Positions 14,286-45,429 of a stretch of DNA of 64,000 nt are shown piece by piece. Where the stretch lies: positions 124,001 through 188,000 of the forward strand of contig JAKEHY010000038.1 of assembly GCA_022614805.1 (NCBI GenBank). Direction: 5' to 3'. How positions within the stretch are numbered: position 1 is the stretch's first letter; every line of letters starts with the position of its first letter. The stretch comes from Candidatus Zixiibacteriota bacterium (lineage in GTDB: Bacteria; Zixibacteria; MSB-5A5; DSPP01). The position numbers were made by a program, and so were the translations under genes. Below the pieces are notes generated by a model, which worked only from the letters and a program-made list of their open reading frames with translations, was not told where the DNA came from and made no database searches.

Positions 14286-16033
14286 GTTTTTCTTCCCTGC
14301 GAAGCTTTCTCGATTTCTTGGAATCCAAGGGGGATTTGCGGCGGGTCAAAGTGGAAGTGGACCCGCATTTGGAAATTACGGAAATCGCAACCCGGGTGGT
14401 CAAGAGCGAAGGCCCGGCTTTGCTTTTTGAAAACGTCAAGGGGTCGGCTTTTCCTCTGGCCGTCAACATCCTTGGTGCCAAGCGGAGAATCGAATGGGCA
14501 CTGGGGGTTCCGCCGGCGGAACTGGGGGCTTCGCTCGTCAAACTGGCGCAGGACGTGCCGAATTTTTCCTTCAAAAATTTTTTTGGACATCGGCCGCTCG
14601 TCAAACGGTTTTTGAAAAGCGGGACAAAGAAACGCTCACGGGCGCCGGTGCAGGAGGTGGTCGAAGAGCCGAATTTGGACCAACTCCCCTTTCTTTACTG
14701 CTGGCCCAAGGACGGCGGGCGGTTCGGCACCCTCGGTTTGATTTTCACGGAAAGCCCGAAAACGAAGATTCGCAACGTCGGCATCTACCGGATGCACATT
14801 TATTCACCGACCACGACGGGGATGCATTATCAGATTCAGAAGGGGGGCGGGTTTCACTTTTTCGAATGCGAACAGTTGGGGATTCCCCAGGAAGTGGCGG
14901 TGGTTTGCGGCGCCGACCCGGCTTTGATTTTGTCGGCAGTGGCCCCTTTGCCGGAGGGAATAGACGAAGTCCGGCTGGCCGGTTTTTTACGGCAGATGGC
15001 AACGCGAATGGTGAAAGCCAAAACCTTGAACTTGGAAGTGCCAGCCGAAGCGGAACTGGTTATCGAGGGGATTTGTCCTCCCAGTGAGCGGAAAGATGAA
15101 GGGCCGTTCGGCGACCATTTCGGCCATTACTCCCATCCCGCTCCTTTTCCGGTCTTTCAAGCCAAAAAAATCACCCGGCGGAAGGACGCCATCTTTGCCG
15201 CCTCGATAGTCGGCAAACCGCCGCAGGAGGACCGCTGGATGGGGGATGCCGTGCAGGAAGTGCTCGGCCCCCTGATAAAACTGATGCACCCGGAAATCGA
15301 GGAGATGTGGAGCTACTATCAGGCCGGTTTTCACAATCTTTTGGTCGTTTCTGTGACCAACCGCTTTGCCAAGGAGGGGGTCAAAACGGCCCTTTCGCTT
15401 TTGGGGCAGGGACAGCTTGGGTTGACGAAGGTGGCCGTTCTGGTTTCCGCCGGTGTCAACGTCAAAAATTTCCACGCTGTTTTGCGGGAAATTGCAGCGA
15501 ATTTCAATCCGGCGGAGGATTTTCTGCTTTTACCCGGCGTGCCGCTGGATACGCTCGATTTCACCAGCTTCAAGATGAACCTGGGAAGCAAGATGATTTT
15601 GGATGCGACCCGAAAACCGGCTCCGGCTCCCGTTTCCGAAAAACCGAATCTCGCCTGGCTGCAATCGGTACCCGGTGTCGATGAATTTGTTTTGCTGGAG
15701 AATTGCCTGCTTGTCGTCAAAACCAAAAATGAGGGGCGGAAACTCGTTGAAAGCCTGGTGCAAAAGCTGGATGCGCCGGTGAAGCTCGCGGCTGTCGTCA
15801 GCCCGGACGTGAATCTGCGGAACGAGGAGAATTTGCTCTGGGGAATTTTCACCCGTTTCGACTGCGCGCGCGACATCGTTTTCGCTTCGGCCAAACTAAT
15901 CGGTGCATCACCCGTTTACCGGGGCGTATTAGGTATTGACGCCACTTTCAAAAGCGGTTATCCTCTCCCAGTTGAAATGGACGGGGAGATAATCAAAAAA
16001 GTGGATGAGCGATGGAACCAGTACCGGATATAA
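14282..16033 (+). CDS. mqnL: UbiD-family decarboxylase of the futalosine pathway
   Basis: Predicted to use prenyl-FMN to decarboxylate the prenylated dihydroxynaphthoate. It has 583 residues, longer than E. coli UbiD (about 497). The family signature is RKDEGPFGDHFGHYS at about 270-284, and the N-terminal LRSFLDFLESKGDLRRVKVEVDP entry is typical. The start is TTG 14282, overlapping the mqnM stop, so the two are translationally coupled. Its 3' end overlaps mqnE by 22 bases. The assignment to menaquinone rests on the neighbours. Confidence 0.92.
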   Translation: MSFSSLRSFLDFLESKGDLRRVKVEVDPHLEITEIATRVVKSEGPALLFENVKGSAFPLAVNILGAKRRIEWALGVPPAELGASLVKLAQDVPNFSFKNFFGHRPLVKRFLKSGTKKRSRAPVQEVVEEPNLDQLPFLYCWPKDGGRFGTLGLIFTESPKTKIRNVGIYRMHIYSPTTTGMHYQIQKGGGFHFFECEQLGIPQEVAVVCGADPALILSAVAPLPEGIDEVRLAGFLRQMATRMVKAKTLNLEVPAEAELVIEGICPPSERKDEGPFGDHFGHYSHPAPFPVFQAKKITRRKDAIFAASIVGKPPQEDRWMGDAVQEVLGPLIKLMHPEIEEMWSYYQAGFHNLLVVSVTNRFAKEGVKTALSLLGQGQLGLTKVAVLVSAGVNVKNFHAVLREIAANFNPAEDFLLLPGVPLDTLDFTSFKMNLGSKMILDATRKPAPAPVSEKPNLAWLQSVPGVDEFVLLENCLLVVKTKNEGRKLVESLVQKLDAPVKLAAVVSPDVNLRNEENLLWGIFTRFDCARDIVFASAKLIGASPVYRGVLGIDATFKSGYPLPVEMDGEIIKKVDERWNQYRI

Positions 16034-17148
16034 GATTCAAAGACAAAAAATTAGCACTGATTTGGGAAAAAGTAGTCTCCGGCAAGCCGCTTGATATAGC
16101 GGACGGGCTGGCCTGCCTCCAGACCCGCGATTTGATTTCGCTCGGCAAAATGGCTTCCTGGGTCAAGGAAAAAAAATCGGGGGATTACGTTTACTTCGTC
16201 ATCAATGCTCAACTAAACCCCACCAATCTCTGCGTTCTGGACTGCAAGTTCTGCGATTTTGCCGCCAAACCGGGGGATAAACACGCTTACAATATGACAA
16301 CCGAAGAGGCCCTGGCGCGGCTCTCCAACGAGCTGCACGAGGTGCACATCGTTGGCGGGTTGTGGCCGGATTGGGATTTGGACCACAGCCTCGAATTGAT
16401 GGACCAAATTCGGGAGCGTTTTCCCAGCGCCCAGTTGAAAGCGTTCACCGCCGTCGAAATCGATTTTTTTGCCAAGCGGGCCAAGTTGTCGATCGAAGCC
16501 GTTTTGAAAAAGCTGATGGAGCACGGGTTGGTGGCGCTGCCCGGCGGCGGGGCGGAGGTTTTCTCCAAACGGGTCAAAAAGGAGCTCTTCGACAAAAAAA
16601 TCGGCGAGGAGCGCTGGCTGGAGGTTCACGCCACCGCGCACCGTTTGGGATTGAAATCGAACGCCACTTTGCTCTACGGCCATATAGAAACCCTTGAAGA
16701 GCGGGTGGACCACCTGCTCAAGCTGCGGGCCCAGCAGGAGCGCTCCGGCGGGTTTTTGACCTTCATTCCGCTCGCTTTCCAGCCGGGGAACACCGGCATT
16801 ACCGACCGCTTCACGTCCGCCATCGACGATTTGCGCACGCTGGCCACCAGCCGCCTCGTTTTGGACAATTTCCCGCACATCAAATCGTACTGGGTGATGT
16901 TGGGAGAAAACACGGCTTCCATCGGGCTGAACTTTGGCGGGGATGATTTGGACGGCACCATCGGAGAGGAAAAAATCGCCCACCTCGCCCTAGCCGAAAG
17001 CCCGGTGGGGCTGACTCGGAGCCGGCTTTTGGCAATGATTCGGGAAGCGGGCCGGATTCCGGCGGAGCGGGATGCCTGCTACAACATTTTGAACGTGTAT
17101 GAAAATGGAAACATCCCAAGGGAAAACCGGAAACCCCAACTGGTATGA
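16012..17148 (+). CDS. mqnE: Aminofutalosine synthase (radical SAM)
   Basis: MqnE joins 3-enolpyruvylbenzoate with S-adenosylmethionine to give aminofutalosine. The 378-residue protein has the radical SAM cluster motif CVLDCKFC (C-x3-C-x2-C) near residue 71, preceded by INAQLNPTN, and the paralogue-defining LPGGGAEVFSKRV region at about 178. The C-terminal half has PLAFQPGNTGI and the HIKSYWVMLGE stretch. The ATG at 16012 lies inside the end of mqnL and gives a start consistent with family length. MqnE and MqnC below are paralogues of one another. Confidence 0.95.
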   Translation: MEPVPDIRFKDKKLALIWEKVVSGKPLDIADGLACLQTRDLISLGKMASWVKEKKSGDYVYFVINAQLNPTNLCVLDCKFCDFAAKPGDKHAYNMTTEEALARLSNELHEVHIVGGLWPDWDLDHSLELMDQIRERFPSAQLKAFTAVEIDFFAKRAKLSIEAVLKKLMEHGLVALPGGGAEVFSKRVKKELFDKKIGEERWLEVHATAHRLGLKSNATLLYGHIETLEERVDHLLKLRAQQERSGGFLTFIPLAFQPGNTGITDRFTSAIDDLRTLATSRLVLDNFPHIKSYWVMLGENTASIGLNFGGDDLDGTIGEEKIAHLALAESPVGLTRSRLLAMIREAGRIPAERDACYNILNVYENGNIPRENRKPQLV

Positions 17149-17921
17149 AACCGGTCATAGGGAAAATTCCGTATTTGAATTCCTTTCCTTTTTATTTCGG
17201 GTGGGAACATCTGCCGGTTGAGACGGTGGAGCTTTTTCCGAAGCAGTTGGGGGAACTGGCGCGGGAGGGGAAAATCGACGGCGGGCTTTTGTCGCTCTAC
17301 GACTACTTCACGGTTGAAGATGAATTTGCGTCCCTTGATTTGGGAATTGCCGCCCGAGGGGCGGTCAAAAGCATTCTGCTTTTTAGCAACTGCCCCCTGT
17401 GGGATTTAAGCGGCAAGCAAATCGCCGTTTCCGACCAGACCGCCACTTCCTTCCGGCTTATGCGTTTGATTTTGGAAGAGAAGGAAAAGCAAACCGGTCT
17501 TCGCTATACTTCCGATTTTTTGCAGAAGCCAACCGGGATGCTTTTAATTGGCAACCAGGCTTTGGCGGAAAAGAAAAACAAGTTGCGAACGTACCGATAT
17601 CTGTACGATTTGTCCGAATTCTGGTATCACTGGACGGGGCTGCCTTTCGTTTTTGCCGTTTGGGCCTTTCGCAAAACACTGCCGGCGGCCTTTATCGATA
17701 AGGTCAAAATCCGACTGGAAAGCTCGCTGGAAAAAAGCTTGGCGAATCTGGAAAAAGTGGCCGCTTTGGGTTCGGAGGAGTTGGGAACTTTGGAGGAGCG
17801 CACCAATTATTTGCGGGGAATCATTTACCGCCTGGGCCCGGAGGAGAAAAAGGGGCTGGAGCTATTCAAGTCGGCTCTCGTGCGGGCAAAAATGCTGGAG
17901 GAGGCGGGTGCCGTCGTTTGA
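17145..17921 (+). CDS. mqnA: Chorismate dehydratase
   Basis: MqnA dehydrates chorismate to 3-enolpyruvylbenzoate, the entry to the futalosine pathway. The 258 residues have the periplasmic-binding-protein-like fold without a signal peptide; the N-terminus GKIPYLNSFPFYFG is diagnostic and is followed by LFPKQLGELAREGKIDGGLLS. The ATG at 17145 overlaps the mqnE stop by four bases (ATGA). Its own end overlaps mqnC by 14 bases. All of this suggests one polycistronic message. Confidence 0.94.
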   Translation: MKPVIGKIPYLNSFPFYFGWEHLPVETVELFPKQLGELAREGKIDGGLLSLYDYFTVEDEFASLDLGIAARGAVKSILLFSNCPLWDLSGKQIAVSDQTATSFRLMRLILEEKEKQTGLRYTSDFLQKPTGMLLIGNQALAEKKNKLRTYRYLYDLSEFWYHWTGLPFVFAVWAFRKTLPAAFIDKVKIRLESSLEKSLANLEKVAALGSEELGTLEERTNYLRGIIYRLGPEEKKGLELFKSALVRAKMLEEAGAVV

Positions 17922-18987
17922 GAATCTGAAAGCGAAAATCCGGGCCGGGGAACGCTTGTCTTTCGATGAAGGGGTTTTTCTCTACAAAGAAGCTCCGCTT
18001 TTGGATTTGGGGGAGCTGGCTGCGGAAAAGAAAGCGGCCCGGTTGCCGGAGGATGTGATTACCTTCGTGGTGGACTCCAACCCCAACTACACCAATGTCT
18101 GCGACTACGACTGTGTCTTCTGCGCCTTCTACCGGCACGCCGATGCGCCGGACGCCTACACGCTGGAACACGACGAAGTTCTGAAGAAAATCAAATGGTC
18201 GGTGGAGCGGGGCGCCACCACCGTTTTGCTGCAGGGAGGAGTGCATCCCGATTTGCCGATGGAGTACTACACCGGATTGGTTACAAAAACCCGAGCGCTT
18301 TTTCCCCAACTAACGCCCCACTTTTTCTCCGCGCCGGAGATATGGGGGATGGCGGAGGTTTCCGGGCTTTCCACCCGCGAGGTTCTGGCCCGCTTGAAGG
18401 CAGCCGGGCAGTTCACCCTGCCCGGTGGCGGGGCGGAGATGCTCTCCGACCGGGTGCGTCGGAAATTTTCGCGCTTAAAAGGGGTCTCCGCCAAGTGGCT
18501 GGACGTGCACCGGGAGGCGCACGAGCTGGGCTTCCGCTCCACCGCCACGATGATGTACGGGCATATCGAAACGCCGGAGGATGTCATTATTCACCTCGAT
18601 TCCATCCGCTCCCTGCAGGACGACACCGGCGGGTTCACCGCCTTCGTTCCCTGGAGCTTCAAACCGGGGAACACCAAGCTGGAAAAGCATATCCCCTTTT
18701 ATGCCGGAGCCAACGCTTATCTGCGGATGGTTGCCGTCTCCCGGCTTTATCTGGACAACTTCGACCACATTCAGGCCTCCTGGTTTTCGGAGGGGAAAAA
18801 AGCCGGCCAGGCAGCGCTGTACTTTGGCGCGGACGATTTCGGCGGAACGCTTTTCGAAGAGCACGTTCACGAGGCGACTGGCTTTGTCAATCAAGTTACA
18901 GTGGAAGAAGTCGTTACCTTGATAAAAGAAGCCGGCTTCCGCCCCGCCCAGCGTACTACACTGTACGAGATTATTCGGTATTATTAA
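17908..18987 (+). CDS. mqnC: Cyclic dehypoxanthinyl futalosine synthase (radical SAM)
   Basis: MqnC cyclises dehypoxanthinyl futalosine. From the GTG at 17908 it has 359 residues, the expected size; the frame is open further upstream, but that part is the shadow of mqnA. The cluster motif CDYDCVFC (C-x3-C-x2-C) lies near residue 67, after DSNPNYTNV. FTLPGGGAEMLSDRVR, MMYGHIETPEDVIIHLD and SFKPGNTKLEKHIPF match MqnC. The gene ends the plus-strand mqn run and is followed by paired GC-rich hairpins. Confidence 0.95.
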   Translation: MPSFENLKAKIRAGERLSFDEGVFLYKEAPLLDLGELAAEKKAARLPEDVITFVVDSNPNYTNVCDYDCVFCAFYRHADAPDAYTLEHDEVLKKIKWSVERGATTVLLQGGVHPDLPMEYYTGLVTKTRALFPQLTPHFFSAPEIWGMAEVSGLSTREVLARLKAAGQFTLPGGGAEMLSDRVRRKFSRLKGVSAKWLDVHREAHELGFRSTATMMYGHIETPEDVIIHLDSIRSLQDDTGGFTAFVPWSFKPGNTKLEKHIPFYAGANAYLRMVAVSRLYLDNFDHIQASWFSEGKKAGQAALYFGADDFGGTLFEEHVHEATGFVNQVTVEEVVTLIKEAGFRPAQRTTLYEIIRYY

Positions 18988-20497: not shown

Positions 20498-20642
20498 GGT
20501 TTTCCTTTCCACGACTGGAAGATAGAAAATCGCGGCCGAAGCGCCATATTGCCATCCGTTCAGGCATACGTATATTCCCGTCTTAAAATTAAAACGGCCG
20601 GGAGGGTAGGGACCGTTGAATTGTTCGTTTAAGGGAGGAGCT

Positions 20643-23240
20643 ATGCGCCGCTTGGCAGCCGCCGCTTTGATAAGCATGGTCTTTTTTACTCTTCTTTCGG
20701 CCCGCGGGCGCTGGGGGGATTCCCACTCCGATTTCCACTACGCCCGCGACCGGGCTTTCGATTTGATTCACGTCCGGTTGGAAATCTCCTTTGATGAGGC
20801 CGAACGCTCCCTTTCCGGCAAGGTCACCCACACTTTCACTCCCATTTTGCCGGAACAAAGATTTTTGTTTCTGGATGCTGTCGGCCTGAAAATTGAAAAA
20901 GTTTCCGACCCGGCCGGAAATTCCTTGGCTTTTGAACAATTGGACGAAAAGCTGAAGATTGACTTGGGCCTGCCGTTTAAGCCATTTGCAGACACTTTTG
21001 TCATAACTATCGAATATGGCGGCCAACCGAAAGCGGGACTTTATTTCGTTCAGCCGGATTCGAAATATCCGCGCAAGCGCCGCCAAATCTGGACGCAGGG
21101 GGAAACCGAAGACACCCGCCTTTGGATTCCGATTTACGACTACCCGAACGATCGGGCCACTTCGGAAGTCATCGTCATCGTACCGGAAAAATATCTGGCG
21201 GTTTCCAACGGGGAACTGGTTTCCGACACCCGCACAGGCGGGAAGCGGGTTTTCCACTGGCGGGAGGGCGTTCCCCACGTCACCTATCTGATTTCACTCG
21301 TCGCCGGGGAATATGAAATGTATTCCGACACGGCCACCTTGAGTGTCGAAGGAAAAATTAAGACCGTTCCGCTTCTTTTCTATCATCCCCCCGGAGAAGA
21401 GGAGAAATCGGTCCGCTCCTTCGGCAAAACCGGCAAGATGATGCGCTTTTTCTCGGAAAAAATAGGGGTTTTCTATCCGTACGAAAAGTATTCCCAGGCC
21501 ACTATAGATGAGTTTATGTGGGGCGGGATGGAGAACATTTCCGCCACCACGCAGACGGAACGGACGCTCCACGACCGGCGGGCACACCAGGATTTCAAAT
21601 CGGAAGGGCTGGTGGCCCACGAACTGGCCCACCAGTGGTGGGGGGATTTGCTCACCTGCCGGGACTGGTCCCACGTCTGGCTGAACGAAGGGTTTGCCAC
21701 CTACTTCGATGCCCTGTTCCAGGAGTACGATTTGGGCTCCGACCAGATGCCGGTCGAGATGCGGGAGGGCCGGGACTATTATATGAGCGAAGACCGGCAC
21801 TACCGCCGCCCCATCGTCACGCAATACTACTCCGACCCCTTGGATGTGTTTGATTCCCATACCTACCCCAAGGGAGGGTGGGTCTTACATATGCTGCGTA
21901 ATTATCTGGGAGAAGAGCTTTGGTGGAAGGGAATCAATCATTACTGCAAAAAGCATTATGCCGGCAGCGTGGTCACCGCCGACTTTGAGAAAGCAATGGA
22001 AGAGGCAACCGGCAAGAATCTGGACTGGTTTTTCCAGCAGTGGGTCTATAAGGCGGGCTACCCGGAATTCAAAATCCGCTCCCGCTGGGATGATTCCGGC
22101 AAAGTGACGAAAATTACGGTCGAGCAGACCCAGGAAACCGATTCGCTGACCCCTCTTTTCCGTGTGAAGCTGCCGGTGGTCATCACAACCCCCAAGGAAA
22201 CCGTTCACGACACCCTCTGGGTTGACCAGAAAGAGGAGGTTTTTTACATCCCCTCCTCCGAACGGCCCAAGATGGTGGAAGTAGACCCCCGGCTGACCGT
22301 TCTAAAGAAGGTCGATTTCGAACGCGCGGAAGGGGCTTTGCGGTACCAGTTAGAGGCAAGCCCAATCGCCGAATCCCGCCGGGAGGCGGCCGAGGCTTTA
22401 GGAAAATTTACTTCGGACGAGACCGTTGAGGTTTTGGCCAAAGTACTGAAGTCCGAGCGTTTTTTCGATGTCCGGCGGGAAGCGGCCCTGTCGCTGGGGA
22501 AAATCCGGGGGGAACGGGCCAAAAAAGCGCTTTTTGCCGGTTTATCGGACGACGATTCCCGTGTCCGACTTAACTGCGTGAAGGCCCTGGCAAGTTTTTC
22601 GGAGGATGCCGAAGTGGTCGGCCGCTTGAAACAAGTTTTTGCCGCCGACACGAGCTACGCCATCGTGGCGGAGATTCTGACCTCCATTTCCGAACTGGGG
22701 CCGCCGGATGCTTTCGAATTTCTGCAAAAGGGGCTTTTGCGCTCCTCCCATAACGAGGTTATCTCCACCGCCGCTTTGAAGGGATTGGCGGAGTTGAAAG
22801 ACTTGAAGGCGGCAGACATTCTTTTCGCCCACACCCTCTACGGCCGTCCCTTTCCGGTCCGCTCCGCCTCCATCGAGGCCTTGGGAAAACTGGGGCATTA
22901 TTTGGGGGAAGACGAAGGGCTTGTCGCTTCCCGGCTGAAGGAGAAAATCAAAAAGTGGCTGGTGGCTCTTTTGGGCGACCCGAAATACAACGCCCGGCTG
23001 GCGGCCATCGAGGCTTTGGGCACCTTCGGTGATGAAGAAACCATAGATGAGTTGAAAAAAGCGGAAGCGAGCGAGACGCACTATCAACTGGTCAAGGCCT
23101 CCCGCCAGGCGATAGAATCGATTCGCACCGGCCAGAAGGGCTTGGTTCCGTTGGACGAGCTGCGCGCCCGGTTGGAAGGGCTGGAGGATGAGAATAAGGG
23201 GCTGCGGCAGCGGATAGAGGCGTTGGAGAAAAAACGGTAA
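20643..23240 (+). CDS. Secreted M1-family aminopeptidase with C-terminal HEAT repeats
   Basis: A zinc metallopeptidase of the aminopeptidase N/LTA4 hydrolase group, exported by an N-terminal signal (MRRLAAAALISMVFFTLLSARG). From the ATG at 20643 it has 865 residues; AAGGGAGGAG at 20631-20640 is a strong ribosome site, which decides against the upstream frame extension. The catalytic motif HELAHQWWGD starts at residue 326, the third zinc ligand is in NEGFATYFD, and the exopeptidase motif GGMENISATT lies near 297. From about residue 570 to the end are HEAT-like repeats (EAAEALGKFTSDETVEVLAKVL and similar) and a short coiled coil. It likely acts outside the inner membrane on peptides. Confidence 0.92.
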   Translation: MRRLAAAALISMVFFTLLSARGRWGDSHSDFHYARDRAFDLIHVRLEISFDEAERSLSGKVTHTFTPILPEQRFLFLDAVGLKIEKVSDPAGNSLAFEQLDEKLKIDLGLPFKPFADTFVITIEYGGQPKAGLYFVQPDSKYPRKRRQIWTQGETEDTRLWIPIYDYPNDRATSEVIVIVPEKYLAVSNGELVSDTRTGGKRVFHWREGVPHVTYLISLVAGEYEMYSDTATLSVEGKIKTVPLLFYHPPGEEEKSVRSFGKTGKMMRFFSEKIGVFYPYEKYSQATIDEFMWGGMENISATTQTERTLHDRRAHQDFKSEGLVAHELAHQWWGDLLTCRDWSHVWLNEGFATYFDALFQEYDLGSDQMPVEMREGRDYYMSEDRHYRRPIVTQYYSDPLDVFDSHTYPKGGWVLHMLRNYLGEELWWKGINHYCKKHYAGSVVTADFEKAMEEATGKNLDWFFQQWVYKAGYPEFKIRSRWDDSGKVTKITVEQTQETDSLTPLFRVKLPVVITTPKETVHDTLWVDQKEEVFYIPSSERPKMVEVDPRLTVLKKVDFERAEGALRYQLEASPIAESRREAAEALGKFTSDETVEVLAKVLKSERFFDVRREAALSLGKIRGERAKKALFAGLSDDDSRVRLNCVKALASFSEDAEVVGRLKQVFAADTSYAIVAEILTSISELGPPDAFEFLQKGLLRSSHNEVISTAALKGLAELKDLKAADILFAHTLYGRPFPVRSASIEALGKLGHYLGEDEGLVASRLKEKIKKWLVALLGDPKYNARLAAIEALGTFGDEETIDELKKAEASETHYQLVKASRQAIESIRTGQKGLVPLDELRARLEGLEDENKGLRQRIEALEKKR

Positions 23241-24196
23241 TGGTTAAAACCCTCCTTTTCGAAGGCGGCGCCGTCCGGGAAGGGAGCCTGTCGGATGTGG
23301 AACGGCCGGGCGTCATCAGTTGGATGGATGTTGAAAACCCTTCCGAAGAGGAGCTGGCAACCATCGCCCGGTTGACGCAGGTTGAAGCAGCGGAACTGGA
23401 AGATTATTTGGGCCGGGGGCAGATGGCGGTGACCCGAAATTATGAGAACTATTCCCTTATGATTTTCCGCTCCGCTTTGCGGGGCCATCCAGAGGCCTTC
23501 ACCCAGCCTTTCGTGATTTTAGTCTCCAAGAAAAACAAGGATTTCATCACCCTCCACCGCCACCCTTCCAGCTCTATGCAGCGGATTTACCGGTATCCAA
23601 CCCAGCGGCTGACGGGGCTTTTTGCCAAGGGGCCGACGATGCTCCTCTACGCCCTTTTGGACGAGTTTATCGAAAGCTACCGGGTGGCCCTGGCGGCCGT
23701 GGAGGACGTGGTGGAAGAAGTGGAGGATGCGGTGATCAGCGGGCATTCGGGGGACACGGTTTTGAAACAAGTGCTGGGGGTTAAAAAGGCTCTGGTTTAC
23801 TATCGCAAGGACCTGGCGGCCAACCGTGAGGTGCTCTCCTCCCTGCAAAAGGAATACGCCGACCAGGTCTCCCGGGCTTTGGTGGCGAAATTCCGGCTGC
23901 ACTACGCCGATATCTCATCCCTGTACGAAAGCGTTTCGATTTACCACGATATTTTATCCACCGCCACCGAGGTGCACTTCTCGATGGTTTCCGCCAGCTT
24001 GAATCTGACGATAAAAAGAGTCACCTCCTGGGGGGCCATCATTCTGGTTCCGACCTTTGTCGCCACCATTTACGGGATGAACTTCGCGCATCTCCCCCTG
24101 GCCGACACCCCCTACGGCTTTTGGATTTTACTGGCCTTAATGTCCCTTTCGGTTTTGGGATTGGTGCGGTATTTCAAAAAGCAAGACTGGTTGTAG
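23240..24196 (+). CDS. corA: CorA-family magnesium/divalent cation channel
   Basis: Pentameric Mg2+ channel of the inner membrane. The 318 residues consist of a soluble N-terminal funnel with a long helix (about 140-260) and two C-terminal membrane helices. The selectivity motif GMN is in TIYGMNFAHLP near residue 279 between the helices. The C-terminal RYFKKQDWL is the positively charged tail expected. Its ATG overlaps the last base of the peptidase stop, so it is probably co-transcribed. A parS palindrome follows 34 bases after its stop. Confidence 0.94.
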   Translation: MVKTLLFEGGAVREGSLSDVERPGVISWMDVENPSEEELATIARLTQVEAAELEDYLGRGQMAVTRNYENYSLMIFRSALRGHPEAFTQPFVILVSKKNKDFITLHRHPSSSMQRIYRYPTQRLTGLFAKGPTMLLYALLDEFIESYRVALAAVEDVVEEVEDAVISGHSGDTVLKQVLGVKKALVYYRKDLAANREVLSSLQKEYADQVSRALVAKFRLHYADISSLYESVSIYHDILSTATEVHFSMVSASLNLTIKRVTSWGAIILVPTFVATIYGMNFAHLPLADTPYGFWILLALMSLSVLGLVRYFKKQDWL

Positions 24197-24230
24197 GCTC
24201 GCCTAAAGGGCGCAACCCTTTCGGACAAAA

Positions 24231-24250
24231 AATGTTTCACGTGAAACATT
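24231..24250. other. parS: parS centromere-like site (ParB-binding palindrome)
   Basis: A perfect 20-bp palindrome whose central 16 bases at 24233-24248, TGTTTCACGTGAAACA, equal the bacterial chromosomal parS consensus. It is intergenic, between the ends of the convergent corA and cyclase-family genes. ParB loads at parS and spreads to organise the origin region and recruit SMC. Chromosomal parS sites cluster near the replication origin, so this window probably lies in the origin-proximal part. parA and parB themselves are not in the window. Confidence 0.9.
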
Positions 24251-24301
24251 TTGGTTAACTTCAGATTTTGCGGATGGTTGCGGGAAAACGAAAAAGATTT
24301 C

Positions 24302-24925
24302 TTAACGCTCTATCAAAACCGCCCGGGCGGGGGCACCGTCGCCATCCTTGATTTTCAATGGCAGGCAGAAGAGTTCGTATTTCCCGGCCTGCACGTAGGA
24401 GAGGTTCAGTCCTTCCAAAATCACCGTGCCGGCCTTGAGGAGGGCCAAATGGGTTTGCGGGGTTTTGACGTCGAACTTTTCAATCGACAAATAATCAATG
24501 CCGACTACCTTCAGCTTGCGGGTGGCCAGGTATTCGGCCGCGGCCGTGGTCAGATAGGTGTAGCTCCTGGAAAATTCCTTCCGTTCCCACAGAAAGGAGT
24601 TTTTGGTCTTGAAAATCACCCGTTCGGCGGTGATTTTATGCTTTTGCAAAACGGGGAGGGTGATTTCATCCTCGATGCCGATGTCAATCACTTCGCACTC
24701 GCCGATCAAAGTCTCCAGCGGAATTTCGTTGGCCTTGGCCCCCTCCGCCAGCATGTGGAAGGGGGGGTCGATGTGGGTGCCGGCGTGAGTGGATAAACAG
24801 AGCCGGGAGATGTTCGGGTCACCGGTGGGGCCGACTCGGGAAAGGGGGACAATCTCCACCGGCGGGTCGCCGGGGTAAACAACCAGTTCCGGGGAGATGC
24901 GCACGGATATATCATGAATTTTCAT
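24302..24925 (-). CDS. Cyclase-family (kynurenine formamidase-like) metal hydrolase
   Basis: A 207-residue member of the Cyclase/KynB fold. The metal-binding signature HAGTHIDPPFHM is present near residue 47, with a downstream ERVIFKTKNS region and the YLTTAAAEYLATRKLKVVGIDY segment typical of the family. Members hydrolyse N-formylkynurenine, cyclic amides or similar substrates; without tryptophan catabolism genes nearby the substrate stays unknown. The ATG at 24925 has no strong ribosome site. The gene is convergent with corA. Confidence 0.88.
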   Translation of the reverse strand: MKIHDISVRISPELVVYPGDPPVEIVPLSRVGPTGDPNISRLCLSTHAGTHIDPPFHMLAEGAKANEIPLETLIGECEVIDIGIEDEITLPVLQKHKITAERVIFKTKNSFLWERKEFSRSYTYLTTAAAEYLATRKLKVVGIDYLSIEKFDVKTPQTHLALLKAGTVILEGLNLSYVQAGKYELFCLPLKIKDGDGAPARAVLIER

Positions 24926-25082: not shown

Positions 25083-25598
25083 ATGCCTAAAAATTCGGCG
25101 AACCATCCCCTTCCGGCCATCTGGGCCCCTTGGCGGGAGGGGTTTATACTGGGGAGCAAGGAAAAGGGGTGCATCTTTTGCCGCCGTCTCCGGCGGAAAA
25201 GGGACAAAACCGATTTAATCCTTTTTCGGGGGCGAACCAGCTTCGTCATACTGAACCTCTATCCTTACACCAGCGGGCATTTGATGATTCTCCCCAACCG
25301 GCACATCGCCGCGCTTTCGGAACTGACCGCCGAAGAATCGGCGGAGATGATGGAGCTGGCGGCCCGGGCGGCGGAGGGGATGAAGCGGGCCCTGCATCCG
25401 GAAGGGTTTAATCTCGGCATGAACCTGGGGCGGGCGGCGGGGGCGGGGGTGGAGGGGCATTTGCACCTGCACGTGGTGCCCCGCTGGACGGGGGACGCCA
25501 ATTTTATGCCGGTGGTCGGAAAGACCAAAGTTTTCTCGGTGGGGTTGCGAAAAACCTATGATTTGTTATATCCGTATCTGAACGGCAGGGGAAAATGA
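25083..25598 (+). CDS. HIT-domain nucleotide hydrolase/phosphorylase
   Basis: A 171-residue histidine-triad protein. The catalytic triad is H126-L-H128-L-H130 in HLHLHVVPRW. The N-terminal CIFCRRL supplies two cysteines of the Ap4A-phosphorylase-like zinc site, and NLYPYTSGHLMILPNRH is the conserved core strand. Family members cleave dinucleoside polyphosphates or AMP conjugates; the exact substrate is not determinable. The stop overlaps the start of the HTH/aconitase-like gene by four bases (ATGA), so the two are translationally coupled, which may imply a shared role. Confidence 0.92.
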   Translation: MPKNSANHPLPAIWAPWREGFILGSKEKGCIFCRRLRRKRDKTDLILFRGRTSFVILNLYPYTSGHLMILPNRHIAALSELTAEESAEMMELAARAAEGMKRALHPEGFNLGMNLGRAAGAGVEGHLHLHVVPRWTGDANFMPVVGKTKVFSVGLRKTYDLLYPYLNGRGK

Positions 25599-27079
25599 GC
25601 AGAATTCCCAACAAAACCCAACTGGTCGAGTTGCAGAAAAAGTACAAAACCCACGAACGCATCGGCGAGGCTTTGGGGGGAGTGCCGGCCTATCTGGTTT
25701 CCTACTGGATGCGGAAAAAAAGCGTCCCCAAAATCTCCGAGCCGAAGTTTTCCCGCTACCAGATTCAATCCCTATGGGAAGAGACCGGCTCGGATGCCAA
25801 GGCGGGGGGGGGGTTGGGGATTTCCAAAGCCGCCTTTTACCGCTGGCGGCGGGTGTACGGGCTTACCGAACGGCCGAAGGTTCTAAAGCTGCACCAGCTC
25901 GATTTGGGAATCGGGTCGCCGCGGCGGGAGGCGTACCGGAAATCGACCGTTCTGGAACAGGTGCTGACGGAAAAATTGAAAGGAAAAGAGCTTCAGGTCG
26001 GGGAAAAAGTGGAGATTTTTCCCGACCGGGGGGCTGTCTGGTTTTCGCCGGAGGAGCTGCCGGACTGGCCGGAGGTGGAAAGGCCCTATCCGGTGAACCT
26101 GTTCGAGTTTTTCAATCCGCTGACCCGCTCCGGCTCCGGCACCGTCCGGGGGGAGGAGAAGATCGACGGGCGGGTTCTTTCCGCCGGCGACGGGGTTTTT
26201 CATCAGCTCCTCTTTGAGCAGCGCCTCCCCCGGCCGTTTGAACTGGTCGGCATCGCCGGCCACCATCATACCGCCCTATCCGGTTTTGGCGCTTTGGTTT
26301 TTCCGACGGAACGGGAGCGGCTGGCGGAGGGATACCCCCTTTCCCTGACGATTCCGAAGGTTTATCAGGTCGTTTTGACCGGCGAGCTTCCCTTTGGCAC
26401 AACGGTCGCCGATTTGGTTCTTTTGCTGCAAAATCGGATTCCCCCCCACTGGAACTCCCACAGTGTGGTGGAATTTCTGGGGGAGGGGGTCGATTGCCTT
26501 TCCCCCGAAGAGCGCTTCGGCCTGGCCAATCTGGCCGGGGAGCTTCATTTGCAAACCGTCCTTGTGGCCGCGCAAATGCCTGTGGAAAAAGAGGCGCGTA
26601 TCGGGGATTGGAAGGTGGAACGGCTGGAATTCGACCTGTCGAATGTTGACCCCGGCGTTTGTCATTACCCGCAGGGGCTCGTCGGCGAGCCGTTGTCCGG
26701 CCGCTTGGGCTGGCCGGTGGAGCGGGTTTTCATCGGCGGCTGCCAGAGCGGAAATTTAGAAGATTTGGAGACGGTGGCCCGGCTTTTGGAAAACCGAATG
26801 ATTGACGACGGGGTGGAGCTTTCCATCTTTCCCGCCTCCCGGACGGTTTATCGCAAGGCCTTGCGCAAAGGGGTGCTGGATACGCTGGTGGGGGCCGGCG
26901 CCTACATTTTTCCGCCGGGCAGCTCTCCGGTTTCCTGGTCGGGGAAAATCTTTGCCACGACAGACCGAGCCTGCCTGGAACATCTACACCCGCAAGACGT
27001 CTGGACCGGGTCTTTTTTGACCGGTTTGGCGGCTGCCTTGACGGGGAAGCTCACCGACCCGAGAAGTTTGTTTAGATAA
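25595..27079 (+). CDS. HTH-like domain fused to a degenerate aconitase/IPMD large-subunit domain
   Basis: A 494-residue protein. Residues 1-105 look like two helix-turn-helix units (LVELQKKYKTHERIGEALGG with LVSYWMRKK; GISKAAFYRWRRVYGLTERP). From about 110 it follows 3-isopropylmalate dehydratase/aconitase large subunits: ILTEK-like entry (VLTEKLKGKELQVGEKVEI), GHHHTALSGFGALVFP where LeuC has GDSHT..GAFGALAF, the VVLTGELPFGTTVADLVL strand, and FIGGCQSGNLEDLE where LeuC has GSCTNxRIEDL. Of the three Fe-S cysteines only C383 remains; the CxxC pair aligns with S443 and V446 (PPGSSPVS), and the GDSH aspartate is H223. A [4Fe-4S] cluster and hydro-lyase activity are therefore unlikely. A ligand-sensing DNA- or RNA-binding regulator is my inference. 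Confidence 0.75.
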   Translation: MSRIPNKTQLVELQKKYKTHERIGEALGGVPAYLVSYWMRKKSVPKISEPKFSRYQIQSLWEETGSDAKAGGGLGISKAAFYRWRRVYGLTERPKVLKLHQLDLGIGSPRREAYRKSTVLEQVLTEKLKGKELQVGEKVEIFPDRGAVWFSPEELPDWPEVERPYPVNLFEFFNPLTRSGSGTVRGEEKIDGRVLSAGDGVFHQLLFEQRLPRPFELVGIAGHHHTALSGFGALVFPTERERLAEGYPLSLTIPKVYQVVLTGELPFGTTVADLVLLLQNRIPPHWNSHSVVEFLGEGVDCLSPEERFGLANLAGELHLQTVLVAAQMPVEKEARIGDWKVERLEFDLSNVDPGVCHYPQGLVGEPLSGRLGWPVERVFIGGCQSGNLEDLETVARLLENRMIDDGVELSIFPASRTVYRKALRKGVLDTLVGAGAYIFPPGSSPVSWSGKIFATTDRACLEHLHPQDVWTGSFLTGLAAALTGKLTDPRSLFR

Positions 27080-43584: not shown

Positions 43585-45429
43585 ATGAAGGGTTTGAGAC
43601 CGGAAGAGATTAAAGTCATCGTTGCCACCGACTGCGGCTCCACCACCACCAAAGCGATTTTAATCGAAAAGGAAGCGGATGGGTCGTACCGTCTGAAAGT
43701 GCGCGGGGAGGCCCCCACCACGGTGGAAGCGCCGTTTGAGGACGTGACGATGGGGGTTTTGAACGCCATCGCCGAAGTGGAGGAGCTTTCCGGCCGGAAA
43801 ATATTGGACGAGAACGGAAAGATTATTTCCCCTGCCAAGGGAAATGTCGGAACCGACATTTACGTTTCCACCTCCTCCGCTGGCGGCGGGTTGCAGATGA
43901 TGGTGGCGGGGGTGGTGCGTTCGATGACAGCGGAATCGGCCGAGCGGGCGGCTTTGGGCGCGGGGGCCATCGTGATGGACGTGATTGCCGCCAACGACCG
44001 GCGATTGCCCCACCAGCAAATCGAAAGAATCCGGCATCTCCGCCCGGATATGATTCTGCTTTCCGGCGGAGTGGATGGCGGCACCACCACCCACGTAGTG
44101 GAATTGGCGGAACTTATCTCGGCGGCCGACCCCCGCCCCCGGCTCGGCACAGGATACAAGCTGCCGGTGATTTTCGCCGGAAATCGGGAGGCCAGCAGCC
44201 CGGTCAAGGATGCCTTGGCGGAAAAAACCGACTTGGTCATCGTGGATAACATCCGCCCCGTTTTGGAGCGGGAAAATCTTTTGCCGGCCCGAGAAAAAAT
44301 CCACGACCTGTTCATGGAACACGTGATGGCCCAGGCCCCCGGCTACCGGAAGCTGATGGAATGGACGGACGCCCCGATTATGCCCACTCCCGGTGCGGTC
44401 GGGCTGATTATGAAAAAAATCGCCGACCTGGAGCATATCGAAGTGGTGGGGGTGGATATCGGCGGCGCCACCACCGACATTTTCTCCGTTTTTCAGGGGG
44501 TCTTCAACCGCACGGTCTCGGCCAATCTGGGGATGAGTTATTCGATTTCCAACGTCTTTGCCGAAGCCAAGCTGGAAAACGTGATGCGCTGGGTGCCGTT
44601 TCCGATGGACGAGCGGGATTTGCGCAACCGGGTGAAAAACAAAATGATTCGCCCCACCACCATTCCCCAGGAGATGGAGGAACTGATTTTCGAGCAGGCG
44701 ATTGCCAAGGAGGCCTTGCGGCTGGCCTTCATCCAGCACAAATCGTTTGCCACAACCCTGAAGGGGGTGCAGCAGCAGCGCACCATTGCCGAGGCGTTCG
44801 AGCAAACCGCCTCCGGCCAGACCATCGTCAATATGATGGATTTGGATATGCTGATCGGCTCCGGCGGGGTGCTTTCGCACGCCCCGCGCCGCCATCAATC
44901 GGCGATGATGCTGATTGACGCTTTTATGCCGGAGGGAATAACCCGGCTGGCGGTCGATTCGATTTTTATGATGCCCCAGTTGGGGGTTTTGACCGAAGTA
45001 CATCCGCAGGCGGCGTTGGAAGTCTTCAACAAAGACTGCCTGATTCATTTGGGCACCGCCATAGTCCCGGTCGGGCAGGAAAAGGAGGGGAAAAAGATTC
45101 TGGACTTTAGTTTTACGCTGCCGGACGGCAAAGTCGAAGCGGGTGAACTGAAATTCGGCGAAATGAAACTGATCTCCCTCGGGCTCGGGCCGGATGAGCT
45201 GCCGCTTAAAGCAAAGGCATCCTTGAACCCGGTGCGCCACTTTGACGTTGAAGCTGGGTCTGGGAAAAAATGGGAGGGAGAAATCTCCGGCGGCGTGGTC
45301 GGAATTATTTTGGACGGCCGCGGCCGGCCCTTTAATTTGCCCGTCGACTCCAAAGTCCGCGTTCCGAAGTTGAAGGAGTGGATGCTGGCTTTGGGGTGCT
45401 ACCCGAAAGAGATTTTGGAAAGAAAATAA
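43585..45429 (+). CDS. GlmL/MutL-family ASKHA protein
   Basis: A 614-residue protein of the family found beside B12-dependent glutamate mutases (GlmL/MutL, a presumed repair or chaperone factor). The nucleotide loop is TDCGSTTTKAILIE near residue 12; DIYVSTSSAGGGLQMMVAG, ILLSGGVDGGTTTHVVELA and GVDIGGATTDIFSVFQG (about 290) are strongly conserved. No mutase subunit gene is nearby, and neighbours are unrelated. The role is therefore open: a stand-alone ATPase acting on a corrinoid enzyme elsewhere is possible. The start ATG follows an A-rich stretch without a clear ribosome site. Confidence 0.88.
   Translation: MKGLRPEEIKVIVATDCGSTTTKAILIEKEADGSYRLKVRGEAPTTVEAPFEDVTMGVLNAIAEVEELSGRKILDENGKIISPAKGNVGTDIYVSTSSAGGGLQMMVAGVVRSMTAESAERAALGAGAIVMDVIAANDRRLPHQQIERIRHLRPDMILLSGGVDGGTTTHVVELAELISAADPRPRLGTGYKLPVIFAGNREASSPVKDALAEKTDLVIVDNIRPVLERENLLPAREKIHDLFMEHVMAQAPGYRKLMEWTDAPIMPTPGAVGLIMKKIADLEHIEVVGVDIGGATTDIFSVFQGVFNRTVSANLGMSYSISNVFAEAKLENVMRWVPFPMDERDLRNRVKNKMIRPTTIPQEMEELIFEQAIAKEALRLAFIQHKSFATTLKGVQQQRTIAEAFEQTASGQTIVNMMDLDMLIGSGGVLSHAPRRHQSAMMLIDAFMPEGITRLAVDSIFMMPQLGVLTEVHPQAALEVFNKDCLIHLGTAIVPVGQEKEGKKILDFSFTLPDGKVEAGELKFGEMKLISLGLGPDELPLKAKASLNPVRHFDVEAGSGKKWEGEISGGVVGIILDGRGRPFNLPVDSKVRVPKLKEWMLALGCYPKEILERK

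Follow-up and report, generated by a model that had tools for sequence, protein, structure and literature searches.

Introduction

Common among bacteria, the parS site serves as a "centromere" through which the origin side of the chromosome is marked out for segregation. The closest described relatives of the locus reported here are the chromosomal ParABS systems of Bacillus subtilis, Caulobacter, and Pseudomonas, with which it shares the same 16-bp sequence and a low number of copies; the parS zone is reported to cover ~500 kb in Caulobacter and ~650 kb in Pseudomonas (excerpts of PMC5815017). Work on ParABS raises, as an open question, the means by which parS sites multiply and spread (excerpts of PMC5815017 and PMC7333895). 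Noc, the nucleoid occlusion protein, belongs to the same protein superfamily and recognizes a similar palindrome (NBS), with bases A1 and C6 in each half where parS has G1 and A6 (excerpts of PMC7383237). The same excerpts assign residue 201 of ParB to base 6 of parS and describe Ser as tolerated there for parS binding.

We examined a window of 64 kb (C1:124001–188000) from a Zixibacteria metagenome bin (G000; 2,555,240 bases, 38 contigs, 93% completeness). Comparisons were made with a congener (G001), with the one-contig genome of an order relative, Zixibacteria bacterium RBG-1 (G002; AUYT01000001.1, 2,122,767 bases), and with further genomes of the class. The window site is ordinary in itself; the notable parts are the dispersed, extended sites of its lineage and a parS duplicated at a rearrangement.

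Results

An exact parS within a 24-bp palindrome

At up to 3 mismatches, the window holds a single match to the 16-base chromosomal parS consensus, and this match is exact (0 mismatches; Table 1). An earlier note on this DNA had placed the full consensus inside a perfect 20-bp palindrome (24231–24250) between two convergent genes. We confirmed both the consensus and the convergent neighbors, corA and a Cyclase-family gene, and the 20 bp are perfect as described, but the perfect arms continue to 24 bp. The end of corA lies 36 bp from the 16-bp core, and 53 bp separate the core from the end of the Cyclase-family gene, a 90% identical orthologue of which adjoins one parS copy of the congener. Tandem repeat and Rfam searches returned nothing relevant to the site.

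Table 1. Exact parS copies of the assembly and features surrounding the window site (window positions unless a contig is named)
Feature	Coordinates	Strand	Remarks
16-bp parS core	24233–24248		TGTTTCACGTGAAACA; exact consensus
Perfect 24-bp palindrome	24229–24252		AAAATGTTTCACGTGAAACATTTT; putative extended parS of the genus, A at positions 10–12 from the center in each half
corA-like Mg2+ transporter gene	23240–24196	+	Left convergent neighbor; Pfam PF01544, E 4e-46
Cyclase-family gene	24302–24925	-	Right convergent neighbor; PF04199
Left breakpoint relative to congener G001	24190–24228 (C1:148190–148228)		Left flank corresponds to G001 C75, right flank to G001 C26
Block of parS, intergenic DNA, and last ~6 cyclase codons	24223–24321		Present at both G001 breakpoint junctions
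parS copy	C1:120134		Co-directional neighbors: lpxC-fabZ, PepSY-domain gene
parS copy (window site)	C1:148233		Convergent neighbors: corA, Cyclase-family gene
parS copy	C23:7494		Divergent neighbors: M20 peptidase, a further gene
parS copy	C23:59507		Divergent neighbors: carbamoyltransferase, lepA

Copies in the genome and across the class

The exact sequence occurs four times in the assembly (56% G+C), against 0.0003 copies expected by chance. Two additional matches carrying two mismatches are at chance level, the reversed control giving 2 forward and 2 reverse matches at ≤2 mismatches. Copies are few, and the evenly scattered generic repeat that the earlier note had considered was not seen. 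In the three order genomes, none of the 14 sites lies inside a recognized gene, two being within small ORFs that lack support.

Across 132 genomes of the class, at least one exact parS was found in 93, and the reversed pattern in 0 of 132. This genome and its congener have four exact copies each, G002, G073, and G114 have three, and the other 127 have 0–2. Allowing ≤1 mismatch, sites were present in 26 of a 29-genome sample (none in G008, G019, or G020), the reversed control at this threshold matching in G018, G019, and G022. Outside the order, all 23 sampled class genomes with sites have them on a single contig and within 2.1 kb, a rule that holds for the 29-genome sample, as the wider search of 132 includes a few fragmented genomes (e.g., G029, G030, G048, G073, and G086) with sites on two contigs. 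ParB lies on the same contig within ≤5 kb of this cluster in 16 of the 23 and on another contig in 5; it was not found in 2 (G013 and G028). In the three order genomes, by contrast, parS is dispersed over many intergenic loci.

ParABS genes and the missing parB

The site had been taken to imply a ParABS system, and in the congener parA and parB are indeed present: its dnaA contig (C78) reads dnaA ... mnmG, parS, parS, rsmG, parA, parB, these two sites being among 4 exact and 3 one-mismatch parS copies in that genome. Such a placement of parA-parB by mnmG-rsmG resembles the ParABS systems of Bacillus subtilis, Caulobacter, and Pseudomonas, as do the origin-side sites of G002 (see below). The congener's ParB has ParB_N, HTH_ParB, and ParB_C domains, passes the parB_part cut-off (175 bits against 58), and has ParB/Spo0J proteins as its closest solved relatives. 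All three order genomes, this one included, encode SMC.

In our assembly, on the other hand, no ParB was matched with TIGR00180 or PF02195, and rsmG/parA/parB DNA was not found by similarity to the congener; a search with the congener stretch that runs from the end of mnmG as far as parB recovered only the last 118 bases of contig C24 and short matches at parS sites. A ParB_N match was obtained in 25 of the 29 sampled genomes, a set that includes this one, the misses being G000, G008, G013, and G028. The earlier note had regarded a genome without parB as counting against a parS, and taken literally this is what the assembly contains. However, C24, the dnaA contig of this genome, is collinear with C78 and ends inside mnmG, just ahead of the position at which parS, rsmG, parA, and parB are expected. 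Because C24 stops where the congener has parS-parS-rsmG-parA-parB, the absent parB most likely reflects an assembly gap, into which the two parAB-side sites of the congener also fall, and we infer that the organism itself has parB.

Had the species instead lost ParB, leaving its sites as remnants, a bin of this completeness would indeed yield no ParB; the contig end inside mnmG together with four intact sites makes such a loss appear unlikely, SMC is still present, and we consider a relic very improbable. The palindrome is very probably a chromosomal parS, one among several, that serves a canonical ParABS/SMC segregation system in this Zixibacteria bacterium, given its exact consensus, the four copies where chance predicts practically none, the parAB genes and ParB of the congener, neighborhoods kept between the two genomes (see below), the presence of SMC, and the class-wide count against its reversed control. 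From sequence, ParB would be expected to bind and load at this site and to act there in segregation. A ParB-CTP dimer would be loaded at the palindrome, close as a clamp, and slide off onto neighboring DNA; loaded ParB would stimulate ParA, the origin region being pulled to the daughter cell, and ParB at parS would recruit SMC.

Termination and Noc binding as alternative functions

A palindrome between convergent genes could also be a bidirectional transcription terminator for corA and the cyclase gene, with its likeness to parS secondary, and RNA from either strand would form a 10-bp stem followed by a U-rich stretch (-10.4 kcal/mol, z -2.4 for the plus strand). Yet the remaining three exact copies are not convergent (two divergent, one co-directional), the folding of two of them hardly exceeds that of shuffled sequences (z -0.66 and -0.97; the third z -2.52), and the window site is absent from the list produced by a terminator scan. 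Termination would moreover not require the same 16 bases, yet these recur unchanged in all four copies. We rejected termination as the main function, an extremely improbable one given the non-convergent copies, the weak folding of two, and the result of the scan; a side role in termination is possible. A Noc-binding site is scarcely credible, for although ParB and Noc are related, and residue 201 (Caulobacter numbering) is Ser in the congener's ParB and Arg in Noc, the site carries G1 and A6 and not the Noc bases, this ParB keeps Arg173 and falls short of the Noc cut-off (225 bits against 315), all of the ParB/parS type, and Ser at 201 is among the parS-specific variants in excerpts of PMC7383237.

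Among 25 sampled ParBs, Ser at the 201 equivalent is found in the congener alone (L076:9775–10632), the other 24 having Gly; positions 173, 179, and 201 were numbered by matching the GK-R, AN, and GHAR motifs to residues named in PMC7383237, several of the 25 proteins being read by eye. In the congener, three of seven parS sites depart from the consensus in one half, at precisely base 6. Covariation of residue 201 with base 6 gave no clean correlation, since G005 and G023 vary at base 6 despite Gly201, and we keep it as a hypothesis only.

The extended site of the genus

Positions 10, 11, and 12 from the center are occupied by A in 26, 25, and 25 of the 28 halves (14 sites) in the three order genomes, compared with 24, 18, and 21 of 64 halves (32 sites) in 23 other class genomes. 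At seven genus loci that are not orthologous to each other, A fills 39 of 42 flank positions, against 63 of 192 elsewhere in the class (Fisher p 2e-13, a value that is too small because neighboring positions are non-independent). Taken alone, G002 has weaker shoulders, with A in 6, 3, and 4 of 6 halves at positions 10, 11, and 12. Sequence surrounding the sites has an A+T content of 59%, which alone does not explain A over T. On these counts, and unlike the usual chromosomal parS, the parS of this genus is effectively a longer, 24-bp AAAW-flanked palindrome. Dispersed, A-shouldered sites of this kind mark a lineage in which a reach of ParB specificity past 16 bp could be measured.

Turnover and duplication relative to the congener

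Two copies keep their neighborhoods between this genome and the congener: C23:59507 corresponds to G001 C75:53900, and C23:7494 to G001 C60:36397, which has one mismatch. No congener counterpart site was found for C1:120134 at ≤1 mismatch, and G001 C62:19365 has no counterpart parS here. On the same congener contig (L073, 5388–9881), a tRNA-Glu gene is flanked on either side by DNA that has hardly any counterpart in this genome or none; the C62 parS sits at the far edge of this insert, by a dehydrogenase gene, and this genome has neither the insert nor a parS there. A search for orthologous parS in G002 gave none that was convincing: the site at 571,470 follows the end of a shared dehydrogenase-like gene at a distance of 70 bp, and the C62 site precedes the start of that gene by 103 bp, on its opposite side.

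The window site lies at a rearrangement junction, its corA side corresponding to G001 C75 and its cyclase side to G001 C26. The other halves of both congener junctions are adjacent in this genome at C23:32164–32380, where no parS-like site was found at up to 3 mismatches. Both congener junctions carry the same block, made up of a parS altered at one position (TGTTTCACGCGAAACA), intergenic DNA, and the final ~6 codons of the cyclase gene, and including ~80 bp beside parS. The two block copies are identical at 96 of 110 positions, whereas the C75 copy and the window agree at 74% over 104 columns; because the congener copies are closer to each other, the block has been duplicated, or kept alike, in the congener lineage. 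In the congener, the corA copy still has a piece of the cyclase end attached, which points to the window arrangement as the older one. Either the block would have been duplicated by staggered breaks, or it would have been copied first and then used as a crossover site. The junctions would fit an inversion if C1 and C23 are oppositely oriented on the chromosome.

The 387 kb of C1 and C23 that were compared show some 5–7 breakpoints against the congener, a density biased by the choice of congener contigs that carry parS. By rough arithmetic, the chance that one of four sites falls within 100 bp of a breakpoint is ~1%, or ~10% if breakpoints are intergenic only; it is therefore the duplicated block, and not this coincidence, that carries the claim. 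On the reading that we favor, sites of the lineage lie dispersed over the origin-side chromosome, bear conserved A-rich shoulders (24 bp in total), and can be copied by rearrangement. We suggest tentatively, and regard as rather doubtful, that parS in this lineage multiplies and spreads by rearrangement, a breakpoint with duplicated ends leaving a parS on each side, and that ParB has come to recognize all 24 bp of the extended site while tolerating changes at base 6, where residue 201 lies. If true, this would offer a natural path by which the one parS cluster typical of the class could become a dispersed centromere. For the question of how parS sites spread, the genome pair provides one concrete instance, with one parS here and a duplicated parS block at both rearrangement ends in the congener. 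Among titles and the starts of abstracts, a literature search gave no match for Zixibacteria parS and nothing describing such a parS breakpoint, duplication, or extended flank.

Distance to the origin and placement of the contig

In G002, exact parS sites are found at 88,462, 257,158, and 571,470, with dnaA at 271,834 and parB at 200,747. The three sites are 183, 15, and 300 kb from dnaA, respectively, and span 483 kb (23% of the contig), as opposed to one cluster in the other sampled class genomes. They flank dnaA and the sampled GC-skew switch: skew changes sign, negative to positive, between the samples that start at 247 and 262 kb, and reverts between those that start at 1,272 and 1,378 kb (26 samples, of which some are noisy, with +0.03 at 191 kb and a value of +0.002 at 1,908 kb). 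A reach of ~300 kb from dnaA is comparable with the Caulobacter and Pseudomonas zones given above from excerpts of PMC5815017. Judged coarsely from G002, parS in this order would mark the origin side only within ~300 kb.

The gene orders of G002 and this genome are heavily shuffled relative to each other. Among 28 listed C1 genes (at least 38% identity, reciprocal best in sampled G002), 23 map to 96–643 kb and 5 to 1.80–1.82 Mb, with dnaA at 272 kb and samples denser on the origin side. GC skew on C1 does not switch at the site, the window having +0.061 to its left and -0.016 to its right. The origin-proximal location proposed in the earlier note finds only coarse support, as an origin-side position, in the sites of G002; no GC-skew origin switch is seen at the site itself. 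Its suggested use for orienting the contig fails, because a perfect palindrome reads alike on both strands; the site could at most place the contig.

Other genes of the window

Elsewhere in the window, 20616–23240 encodes an M1 peptidase that continues into a fused series of HEAT repeats, and 25595–27079 encodes a 494-aa protein whose Pfam match covers part of the aconitase family profile. Genes of the futalosine menaquinone pathway are found at 16012–18987, an MqnE-like product scoring just below the MqnE cut-off and MqnC above its own. At 43585–45429, adjoining an amidase gene, a 614-aa GlmL/MutL-like protein (PF13941, 434 bits) falls below the curated GlmL cut-offs and is unusually conserved, with 73–82% identity in the best 80 loci kept, mostly from Zixibacteria.
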